From assembly GCA_903838295.1 (NCBI GenBank), contig CAILXX010000004.1, positions 1-64,000 of the forward strand: a stretch of 64,000 nt of DNA. Direction: 5' to 3'. Within the stretch, counting starts at the first letter, position 1. Every line of letters begins with the position of its first letter. Of this stretch, positions 19,256 to 23,219 are shown one piece after another. The stretch comes from an uncultured Actinomycetes bacterium. Its GTDB lineage: Bacteria > Actinomycetota > Actinomycetes > Nanopelagicales > Nanopelagicaceae. Below the pieces are notes generated by a model that had not been told where the DNA came from, searched no databases, and worked only from the letters and a program-made list of their open reading frames with translations. A program made the position numbers and the translations under genes.

Positions 19256-20167
19256 ATGAGCGCCGTACTTGTCGAAACCGGTCCTGACCAAGGTGCCATC
19301 TGGCATTTTGGCGAACCTAATCATGAGCAACGTGAATTAGCAGTCGGCAACGCTTGGGCAGATCTTTCGCATCGTGGTGTAATTACCGTGACTGGCGCAG
19401 ACAGAATTAAGTGGCTCAACGATATGACCACGCAAGAATTAGGAACTCTGCCGACGGGTCAGTGGACCACTACCTTGTTATTAGATGCGCAAGGACATAT
19501 AGAGCAGCAGTTATTTTTGGTGGACGATGGCAGTACTACGTGGATGCATACTGAATCGGAAAAAGTAGAAGAATTTATTGGATATTTAAATAAGATGAAA
19601 TTTATGTTAGATGTTGATGTTAAAGATGCGACCCACGATTATGCAGTGGTGCGTGCCCCTGGTGCTGCTGACGCCTTTGGTGGACCATTTGCACTGATTC
19701 CGTATGCCGAATTGCAAGATATAACCGATGCATTTAAAGCCGCGGCACATATGCAAGTAGGCATCTGGGCGCTAGAAGCAGAACGAGTTGCCGCTGGCCG
19801 GGCTCGAATACTTTTTGAAACTGATCACAAATCGATTCCGAACGAGCTGGGGTTTATTAATACCGCGGTACATATGAACAAAGGTTGTTATCGCGGTCAA
19901 GAGACCGTAGCCAAAGTATTTAATTTAGGACACCCACCGCGCCGTCTGGTTTTATTGCATTTAGATGGATCGATGGTTCATATGCCTGATCACGGCGCCA
20001 AGGTCACCCTTGATGGCAAAGAGGTTGGCTACATTGGTAGCGTCGCTCGCCATTACGAATTAGGCCCAATTGCATTGGCAGTTATAAAGCGCACTACGCC
20101 GGTAACGGCTACGTTGGATATAGATGGTGTCGCGGCAACTCAAGAAGTCTTGGTCGCTGCCGAATGA
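19256..20167 (+). CDS. ygfZ: YgfZ/GcvT-like folate-binding protein
   Basis: 303 residues from the ATG at 19256. The YgfZ signature KGCYRGQETVAKV (around residues 208-220) is clear, in a GcvT-like fold. Family members bind tetrahydrofolate and help assemble or repair certain Fe-S clusters, and the signature Cys is essential in E. coli. It follows the Fur-family gene by four bases and overlaps the peptidase gene by ATGA, so the three are probably one operon. Longer in-frame starts inside the fur gene are not needed. Confidence 0.9.
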   Translation: MSAVLVETGPDQGAIWHFGEPNHEQRELAVGNAWADLSHRGVITVTGADRIKWLNDMTTQELGTLPTGQWTTTLLLDAQGHIEQQLFLVDDGSTTWMHTESEKVEEFIGYLNKMKFMLDVDVKDATHDYAVVRAPGAADAFGGPFALIPYAELQDITDAFKAAAHMQVGIWALEAERVAAGRARILFETDHKSIPNELGFINTAVHMNKGCYRGQETVAKVFNLGHPPRRLVLLHLDGSMVHMPDHGAKVTLDGKEVGYIGSVARHYELGPIALAVIKRTTPVTATLDIDGVAATQEVLVAAE

Positions 20168-22209
20168 CTCTCGATACATCGAATCCGTTCTTTGCTCGCA
20201 GCACCTTGGAATACGAATTACCGCCTTTTGCACTGATTAAAGATGAGCATTATCTGCCAGCTTTTTATGGGGGTATGGCGGCCCAGTTGGAAGAAGTATC
20301 AGAAATCTTGGCATCGGGCGTACCTACTTTCCAGAACACAATCGTTGCGTTAGAGAAGAGCGGGCAGATTCTTGCGCGAGTTTCTCTTGTCTTTTTCAAT
20401 AAGTCCTCGAGTGATACATCTGCAGAAATAGATGCAATCGAAGAAGAGATAGCGCCAAAACTTGCAATCCACAGCGATGCCATCCGACTTGACCCGGTGC
20501 TCTTTAAGCGGATCGAAGATTTGTATAAAGAAAAAGAGATACTAAATTTGAATGTCGAAGATGCCTGGTTGCTCGAACGGTATTATCGCGATTTTCACTT
20601 TGCTGGTGCGCACTTGACCGAAGCCCAGCGCGAAATCCTAAAAGGTATCAACGAAGAACTCTCAAAGCTGGAGGCCCAGTTCTCGAGGCAGACTTTGGCA
20701 GACACCAACGATTTAGCAGTCGTCGTGGACAGACGTGATGAGCTGGATGGATTGAGTGAAAACGATATTGCTGCAGCAAAGGTGGCGGCAGAAGCCCGCG
20801 GCTTATCCGATAAATGGCTGATTAATATGGTGAATTTTTCTGGTCACCCTTTGCTGGACTCACTTAAGAACCGTGATCTACGGAAAAAGATTATGACGGC
20901 ATCGTTGCTTAAAGGAAATAGGAACAATGACCACGATAATAAGCAGATAGTTTTACAGATGGTTGCCCTGCGCGCCCGCAAAGCTAAATTATTTGGGGCT
21001 AAGAATCATGCCGAATACATCACGCGCGAACAAACTGCTGGTAGTCCCACCAACGTTCACGCCATGATGCGCAAAATAGCCGCGCCAGCAATCAAAAATG
21101 CCAAAGCAGAAGGCGTGGATCTTCAGGCGGCGATCACAGCAGATGGTCACGATTTTGAACTGCAGAGTTGGGACTGGGGCTATTACTCAGAGAAGGTGCG
21201 TCTTGCTAAGTTCAATGTCGATACCGTGGCGTTGGCCCCGTACTTTGAATTAGAACGAGTACTGCAAGATGGCGTCTTTTATGCCGCTACCAAATTATTT
21301 GGAATTACTTTTAGAGAGCGTCCAGATTTGGTTACGTATCACCCAGAAGCAAGGGCCTTCGAGGTCAATGATGCAGATGGTTCGAAAGTTGGCTTGTTTA
21401 TAGGTGATTTCTACACTCGGGATTCAAAGCGCGGTGGCGCCTGGATGAATAATTTAGTAGATCAGAATTTCTTACTGGGGCAGCTTCCCGTCGTCTGCAA
21501 CAACCTTAACGTCCCTAAGCCACCGGCAGGTGAGCCGACCCTGATCAGCTTCGACTTCTTGCAAACCTTGTTCCATGAATTTGGCCATGCATTGCATGGG
21601 TTGTTTTCGCAAACGAAATATCCTCGAGTATCTGGTACCGCGGTTCAGCGCGATTTCGTGGAGTTCCCATCGCAGGTAAATGAGATGTGGATGCTCTGGC
21701 CAGAGATTGTTGATAATTATGCTTACCATTATAAAACTGGCGAAAAATTGCCACAGACCTGGATCGATAACATCAACAAGGCTGCAGCATTTAACGAGGG
21801 TTTTGAGACAAGTAGTTATTTGCAGGCTGCGATATTAGATCTTGCTTGGCACGAACTTACAGATGCGGACGCTGTTGAAGATGTGGAGATATTTGAAGCA
21901 TCAGCGATTGCTGATTATGGATTGAACTATGCGCCGGTCCCAACCCGGTATCGCACCACCTACTTTTCGCATATTTTCGCTGGTGGCTACTCATCTGGAT
22001 ATTACGGTTACATCTGGTCAGAAGTCTTAGACGCAGATACTGTCGATTGGTTCAAAGAGAATGGCGGCCTGGATCGTAAATTGGGAGATCATTTCCGCAA
22101 AGAGTTGTTAAGCCGTGGTGGTTCGATTGATTCGATGCAGATGTATCGTAATTTTCGCGGCAGAGATGCTGATATCACCCCACTCCTAAAACGCAGAGGG
22201 CTAATTTAA
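20164..22209 (+). CDS. M3-family oligopeptidase (OpdA/Dcp-like)
   Basis: 681 residues, full length for the M3 family. The zinc motif HEFGHALHG is at about residue 467, with the third ligand Glu downstream (NEGFETSSY, around 540). The substrate-gating region HIFAGGYSSGYYGYIWSEVLDAD (around 600) is typical. It is a soluble cytosolic metallopeptidase that degrades short peptides. Dcp and OpdA subtypes are hard to separate by eye; the length and the GGYSSGYYGY segment fit both. Confidence 0.92.
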   Translation: MTLDTSNPFFARSTLEYELPPFALIKDEHYLPAFYGGMAAQLEEVSEILASGVPTFQNTIVALEKSGQILARVSLVFFNKSSSDTSAEIDAIEEEIAPKLAIHSDAIRLDPVLFKRIEDLYKEKEILNLNVEDAWLLERYYRDFHFAGAHLTEAQREILKGINEELSKLEAQFSRQTLADTNDLAVVVDRRDELDGLSENDIAAAKVAAEARGLSDKWLINMVNFSGHPLLDSLKNRDLRKKIMTASLLKGNRNNDHDNKQIVLQMVALRARKAKLFGAKNHAEYITREQTAGSPTNVHAMMRKIAAPAIKNAKAEGVDLQAAITADGHDFELQSWDWGYYSEKVRLAKFNVDTVALAPYFELERVLQDGVFYAATKLFGITFRERPDLVTYHPEARAFEVNDADGSKVGLFIGDFYTRDSKRGGAWMNNLVDQNFLLGQLPVVCNNLNVPKPPAGEPTLISFDFLQTLFHEFGHALHGLFSQTKYPRVSGTAVQRDFVEFPSQVNEMWMLWPEIVDNYAYHYKTGEKLPQTWIDNINKAAAFNEGFETSSYLQAAILDLAWHELTDADAVEDVEIFEASAIADYGLNYAPVPTRYRTTYFSHIFAGGYSSGYYGYIWSEVLDADTVDWFKENGGLDRKLGDHFRKELLSRGGSIDSMQMYRNFRGRDADITPLLKRRGLI

Positions 22210-22213
22210 AAAT

Positions 22214-22573
22214 TTAGTAAACGAGGGCTTGAGTTCCATCTTCCATAATCTCTTCAACAAAGGACGCTGCACCTTTGATTCGGACTCCTGGAATTAAATC
22301 GACTTCGGAAATGCCGCGTCTCTTGGCGCATTGGCTGCACACGGTGAGAGTGCCACCAGCAAGGATCGCATCACGTAATTCGTTGAGCGGGGCAGAATGC
22401 TCAAGTTCAAAAGCTTCGCATTTGCCTGGCAAGCCAAAGAAAGTCGCTTCACCGGTCAGCCATAATGAGACAGTCAGCCCAGAAGCAACCGCGGTTGCCG
22501 CCACAGTGAATGCTTGAGCGGCACGCTCTGGATCATTGCTGCCAGACATCGCTTTGACGACCAACTTCTTCAT
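22214..22573 (-). CDS. DsrE-family small protein
   Basis: 119 residues with the DsrE/DsrF-like alpha/beta fold: KKLVVKAMSGSNDPERAAQAFTVAATA at the N-terminus, then LWLTGEATFF. A CSQC pair (around residue 79-82) lies where sulfur-carrying DsrE proteins have their reactive cysteine. A role in sulfur relay or thiol chemistry is possible but not shown. The gene is convergent with the peptidase gene, with only 4 nt between stops. Confidence 0.83.
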   Translation of the reverse strand: MKKLVVKAMSGSNDPERAAQAFTVAATAVASGLTVSLWLTGEATFFGLPGKCEAFELEHSAPLNELRDAILAGGTLTVCSQCAKRRGISEVDLIPGVRIKGAASFVEEIMEDGTQALVY

Positions 22574-22590: not shown

Positions 22591-22596
22591 TAGGCT
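22591..22596 (+). promoter_or_regulatory. -10 element, leaderless start of the small membrane peptide gene
   Basis: TAGGCT ends exactly 6 nt before the GTG at 22603, the same spacing as at the other leaderless starts in this window. Confidence 0.5.
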
Positions 22597-22602
22597 TGGG
22601 CG

Positions 22603-22719
22603 GTGGTGACGTTGACTTCGGTATTACTCATAGCAGGGTCGGCAGCCTTTGGAATTTTTATGATTTTATTCGGAGCGCGCGGTGCGCTAAAAATCTGGCG
22701 TAGAAAAGGAACTCACTAA
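22603..22719 (+). CDS. Small single-pass membrane protein, 38 residues
   Basis: A 38-codon frame from GTG at 22603 to TAA at 22717-22719. It encodes a hydrophobic helix (LTSVLLIAGSAAFGIFMILFG, split here as residues 4-24) followed by a short amphipathic, basic tail ending KIWRRKGTH, the charge pattern of an N-out, C-in membrane peptide. Three features argue that it is real. A TAGGCT -10 sits at the leaderless distance. The stop overlaps the nitrobindin ATG (TAATG), as in genuine operons here. The nitrobindin ribosome site AAAGGA lies inside it. I do not recognise the family. A later ATG at 22660 would give only 19 residues. Confidence 0.6.
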   Translation: MVTLTSVLLIAGSAAFGIFMILFGARGALKIWRRKGTH

Positions 22720-23219
22720 TGGCATTTACTATCCCCGAAGGTTTACACGAAGATCTATATCCATTGGCCTGGCTTGTCGGTACCTGGCGTGGCAAAGGGC
22801 GTGGTGAATATCCAGGCATAGCGCCGTTTGAATTCGCGCATGAAGTAACTTTCAATCATGATGGTCGTGGTTTTCTCAATTACTTTTCTCGGACCTGGTT
22901 AATCAATGCCGATGCAGAAATCCTTGCTCCGTTTGAGTCAGAAGTCGGTTTCTGGCACGCAAAGCCCACAAAGGTTTTGGAAGTTGTTTTGGCGTACAGC
23001 ACTGGCCGTGGTGAAGGATGGGTTGGTTTGCATGATGGTCCTAAGATTCAATTGGCCATGGATACAGGATATGCATCACCATCTGGCACCGTGATCGAAT
23101 CTGGTTCAAGGTTGTATGGATTAGTTGAAGGCCAATTATTCTATGCATACGACGTCGGCATGGGTGGACATGATTTGCAGGCATATATGTGGTCGACACT
23201 TGAACGCCAAGCTGAATAA
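22719..23219 (+). CDS. Nitrobindin-like haem protein (FABP/THAP4-type beta-barrel)
   Basis: 166 residues with the nitrobindin signature GTWRGKGRGEYP (GxWxGxG, around 21-32), the aromatic/His region FEFAHEVTFNHDGRGFLNY, and the C-terminal haem-side region around MGGHDLQAYMWSTLERQ. Homologues such as Mycobacterium Rv2717c bind ferric haem in a ten-strand barrel and isomerise peroxynitrite. It is translationally coupled to the small membrane peptide upstream. AAAGGA at 22706 provides a ribosome site. Confidence 0.88.
   Translation: MAFTIPEGLHEDLYPLAWLVGTWRGKGRGEYPGIAPFEFAHEVTFNHDGRGFLNYFSRTWLINADAEILAPFESEVGFWHAKPTKVLEVVLAYSTGRGEGWVGLHDGPKIQLAMDTGYASPSGTVIESGSRLYGLVEGQLFYAYDVGMGGHDLQAYMWSTLERQAE

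Follow-up and report, generated by a model that had tools for sequence, protein, structure and literature searches.

A leaderless small ORF upstream of nitrobindin in the acI/Planktophila lineage is probably a diverged homologue of the complex II subunit SdhF

The known regulatory leaderless short ORFs of mycobacteria act in cis. SdhF, found in the type A succinate:menaquinone oxidoreductase (Sdh2) of Mycobacterium smegmatis, is a 3-kDa single helix that lies near SdhC and SdhB and blocks the proximal quinone site, and its homologues were described in 2020 as mainly mycobacterial (PMC7447783). A predicted transmembrane (TM) small ORF, MTB_ORF_67572, is located in the 5'UTR of Rv0813c (PMC11133741). 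Here we describe a small ORF in a 64,000-nucleotide stretch of contig CAILXX010000004.1, from an uncultured bacterium of the Nanopelagicaceae; this whole stretch was analysed and is called the window. The locus comprises the following features:

22214-22573, minus strand: divergent DsrE-family gene, a marker of the conserved intergenic position at which the small ORF lies
22591-22596, plus strand: -10 hexamer TAGGCT of a putative leaderless promoter; nearly all orthologues in the family, and most in the class, have a TANNNT 6-7 nt 5' of their start codon
22603-22719, plus strand: small ORF of 38 aa, a single TM helix with a basic tail, marked by conservation, selection and profile similarity to an SdhF-like class profile
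22706-22710, plus strand: Shine-Dalgarno sequence AAGGA for nitrobindin, within the small ORF and 8 nt 5' of the ATG; purine-rich at the same place in relatives
22717-22719, plus strand: TAA stop of the small ORF, sharing one base with the nitrobindin ATG (TAATG)
22719-23219, plus strand: nitrobindin-like protein of 166 aa (THAP4_heme-bd, PF08768), with Tyr156 at the position of the haem-ligand His

The small ORF extends from a GTG at 22603 to the TAA at 22717-22719 and encodes MVTLTSVLLIAGSAAFGIFMILFGARGALKIWRRKGTH (38 codons), a peptide with a maximum 17-residue Kyte-Doolittle mean of 2.54 that has the size and build of SdhF (about 30-40 aa, a single TM helix). The end of TAGGCT is 6 nt from the GTG, a leaderless spacing, and the transcript would begin at the start codon; TACGAT, TACTCT and TAGACT are variants of the hexamer among orthologues. 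No -35/-10 pair emerged from a scan for the sigma-70 consensus, so the promoter call rests on the conserved spacing of the -10 element. Stop codon and nitrobindin ATG share one A, at 22719, and most family members have the end of the stop codon within -3 to +1 of the nitrobindin start. The preliminary description had foreseen much of this: the hydrophobic helix followed by a basic tail, the leaderless start with its own -10, the overlap of TAA and ATG, the nitrobindin ribosome site inside the ORF, and the ease with which so short a frame escapes ordinary gene calling are all as it had them. Of the span that it gave (22591-22719), the end is that of the ORF, but the beginning is that of the -10 hexamer. 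This anatomy alone is suggestive and proves little, being near what chance provides, because in shuffled sequence a leaderless TM ORF arises 0-2 times (about once) per 64-kb strand; the real window holds no other besides the small ORF, which lies directly against a long ORF. Neither the peptide nor the region gave anything above cut-off in scans against Pfam, NCBIfam, PHROGs and Rfam, and the window peptide alone had no match above cut-off in PDB, Pfam or NCBIfam.

In the family of the window genome (f1, the acI/Planktophila lineage to judge by named relatives), nitrobindin was located first and the region upstream was then inspected. Nearly every nitrobindin locus in f1 is preceded by a single-TM ORF of 33-57 aa that ends near the nitrobindin start and is itself leaderless, with a TANNNT 6-7 nt upstream of its start codon. 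A search with the family profile returned one significant copy per genome, adjoining nitrobindin. In the clade of the window, pN/pS was 0.25 in frame, against 1.2 and 2.4 out of frame, and none of 300 column shuffles gave a value as low as that observed; nitrobindin, for comparison, gave 0.09. Two further clades yielded 0.28 and 0.22, with 0 of 200 shuffles as low in each. Constraint in the g16 clade is stronger on the tail than on the helix. Because it is conserved and purifying selection is found in its frame only, the small ORF is almost certainly a real gene. The earlier proposal of a genuine small membrane-protein gene is thus borne out by the relatives, in which the frame is conserved 5' of nitrobindin and non-synonymous change is held back in three clades (pN/pS 0.22-0.28). 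We also note that the strongly conserved tail of g16, SQARDGRTYKRGRL, more constrained than the helix before it, is found at loci L016-L025 and L068.

Other actinomycete families carry at the same site, laid out as divergent dsrE, small ORF, nitrobindin and often fur and ygfZ, a leaderless peptide of 32-35 aa with the consensus MLExFFTxLLVxxxxxxxWFAxYVVYKLYKGQ. The class profile matched one solved protein, SdhF of the M. smegmatis Sdh2 (PDB 6LUM chain E, E 2.2e-11). To control for circularity, the profile was rebuilt minus its one mycobacterial-type sequence; 6LUM chain E was still the top match (E 1.9e-7), and two single sequences from other families matched it alone (E 1.6e-5 and 5.4e-4). 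Among the literature hits listed, no paper joins SdhF with nitrobindin or with Streptomyces.

Neither the window peptide nor the family profile matched 6LUM chain E directly; only class orthologues do. When the family profile was aligned to the SdhF-like profile with hhalign, the N-terminal 20-24 columns aligned with a probability of 87.6 (87.5 without the mycobacterial-type row). A trimmed window-family profile scored 25.1 against the SdhF-like profile, above all 150 shuffles of the TM columns that served as the null (12.0 +/- 2.2, maximum 18.7), and the two share the same dsrE-nitrobindin gap. This profile similarity, weak but significant, together with the identical gene position supports common descent, and the window peptide probably descends from SdhF. 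As judged from profiles and position, the likeness is confined to the N-terminal 20-24 residues, and the second half of the window-family peptide has diverged.

We then compared the distribution of SdhF with that of Sdh2. As PF01127 is too broad for typing succinate dehydrogenases (SDH), we used TIGR02970 to call type A SDH; a class-profile match of 40 bits or more was counted as SdhF. SdhF matches were present in 36 of the 40 SDH2-positive genomes and in 20 of the 70 SDH2-negative ones (Fisher 1.8e-10, a value inflated by kinship). Contrasts within families agree with this association: in f26 the only match came from the one SDH2-positive genome sampled, f33 had matches in 2/2 SDH2-positive and 0/5 SDH2-negative genomes, and in f34 and f18 SdhF scored higher in SDH2-positive genomes. 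The link is not strict. SDH2-positive G069 and G424 lacked an SdhF match, several SDH2-negative genomes retain recognisable SdhF-like ORFs, and G167 and G262 of f18, both fragmented assemblies, had strong matches and no scored SDH2. In f1, TIGR02970 matched in none of 61 genomes (the window genome and 60 others), and the window genome gave no Sdh_cyt match. Its SdhA-like proteins are one in an sdhCAB operon and one resembling L-aspartate oxidase, and its SdhC matches that of the type F Sdh1 (7D6V; E 3.7e-82), so that it encodes only the type F enzyme and no type A sdhCDAB. Given the absence of type A SDH from the f1 genomes searched, the window peptide cannot be an Sdh2 subunit here. Probably it is a diverged homologue of SdhF, orphaned in a genome that lacks the known partner enzyme and still selected at the protein level.

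These observations suggest to us that the small ORF is a real leaderless gene whose translated product would be a single-pass membrane protein of SdhF descent, probably oriented N-out/C-in. The ancestral product would have been a small helix packing on SdhC and SdhB of Sdh2, and its gene would have headed the nitrobindin transcription unit. In the window family, Sdh2 would have been lost and the protein would have survived, keeping its start and the first half of the helix, with a second half and a basic tail that differ from those of SdhF. As the peptide is under purifying selection, it probably serves another membrane partner. Ribosomes may reach the nitrobindin start by termination-reinitiation, helped by the internal Shine-Dalgarno sequence. 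The account draws on conservation, selection, synteny, profile similarity, the absence of Sdh2 and natural deletions. We hold it with fair confidence. A broader reading, in which an old leaderless sdhF of Actinomycetes, locked before nitrobindin, outlived its enzyme in the window family and now serves another membrane complex by recruitment, is about as likely as not.

The natural deletions bear on whether the ORF could instead be a translated leader only, which would bring ribosomes from the leaderless promoter to the nitrobindin start and whose peptide would be unimportant. The stop/start overlap and the internal Shine-Dalgarno sequence are conserved, as such a leader would have them, and at L042, L032 and L035 just 7, 13 and 21 codons of the ORF are left, with no TM segment; these remnants still begin leaderless and stop precisely at the nitrobindin start. 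At L085, L088 and L092, however, the ORF is lost and a TAGGCT or TACGCT lies 6 nt 5' of the nitrobindin GTG; many class members without the ORF show the same layout, with the -10 directly before nitrobindin. After loss of the ORF, the promoter thus appears to pass to nitrobindin, which would then itself be leaderless. The deletions in relatives indicate that the leader is dispensable and that nitrobindin does not need the peptide, and its upkeep under selection elsewhere argues for a function of its own. In-frame selection on the amino acids, the tail included, also speaks against a leader alone, which we consider unlikely. The earlier suggestion that translation of the ORF opens the nitrobindin start may hold as a side effect, but it is not the whole story.

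A related enzyme is at hand in f1, where type F SdhC was found in all but one of the genomes searched, and the peptide could now be serving Sdh1, the sole remaining SDH, as a small subunit. The SdhF-like profile, however, matched no chain of the M. smegmatis Sdh1 (7D6V). Moreover, the f1 genomes G036, G038 and G012 lack the ORF and retain Sdh1, and G022, a fragmented assembly, has the ORF and no SdhC match. We regard this assignment as quite improbable.

The peptide might also be a membrane partner of nitrobindin, a tether or regulator unrelated to complex II. It occurs in f1 as a single copy beside nitrobindin, and G012, which is 99% complete and has no nitrobindin, lacks the ORF as well. Relatives and families without the ORF nevertheless keep nitrobindin, and across the class the ORF tracks Sdh2 better than it tracks the near-universal nitrobindin. 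In the SDH2-positive family f11, SdhF-like ORFs lie elsewhere in the genome and not by nitrobindin, suggesting that these ORFs follow Sdh2; a dedicated nitrobindin partner is therefore very unlikely. At the f11 loci L206, L211 and L213, the SdhF-like matches were located around 1501-1593. The C-terminal His of Arabidopsis nitrobindin is the proximal haem ligand. The aligned position is a Tyr in the window protein and its close relatives (30 family loci, duplicates included) and a His in 62 others. As Tyr156 stands in place of the His, a haem or NO role of the window copy is uncertain. The link to haem or nitrosative stress entertained earlier finds no support here, since position and profile place the family with SdhF of type A SDH and nitrobindin in the genus of the window has Tyr where the haem-ligand His would be. 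Tyr at this position also occurs at two class loci, L109 and L113. An M3 peptidase gene (20164-22209) separates ygfZ from dsrE in the window and its close relatives L002-L006; ygfZ directly adjoins dsrE or nitrobindin in most of the other family members. Finally, a chance ORF, of the kind that shuffled sequence yields about once per 64-kb strand, is scarcely credible, since dozens of genomes conserve the frame and show purifying selection on it.

These results locate, across the actinobacteria, a gene for a complex II subunit reported as mainly mycobacterial, and they do so in an unexpected place, the head of a nitrobindin transcription unit. Species with SdhF and Sdh2, with SdhF and no Sdh2, and with both lost provide a set for testing the role of SdhF. 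The window family would illustrate clearly that a small membrane protein can be maintained by selection when the one partner known for it is missing, and the deletions show how a leaderless gene may vanish and leave its promoter to the gene that follows.

The closest known counterpart is SdhF of the M. smegmatis Sdh2 (6LUM chain E), of about 3 kDa and with one TM helix, which the class orthologues match by sequence and of which a close homologue, L173 in genome G063, likewise starts leaderless 5' of a nitrobindin-like gene. In comparison, the window peptide retains only the N-terminal half of the profile and lacks the WFA..YKL.KGQ half, its tail is longer and basic, and type A SDH is absent from its genome. 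Whereas SdhF as published is mainly mycobacterial (PMC7447783), we find homologues in many actinomycete families. MTB_ORF_67572, too, is a small TM ORF before a gene of the same nitrobindin-like family, and is probably the M. tuberculosis SdhF; it belongs to the mycobacterial lineage and was reported just as a conserved membrane uORF, with no link to SdhF (PMC11133741). The leaderless short ORFs of mycobacteria (PMC4633059) resemble the window ORF as leaderless small ORFs that head a transcription unit. Unlike the known regulatory members of that group, the window-family ORF encodes a peptide whose own sequence is under selection.
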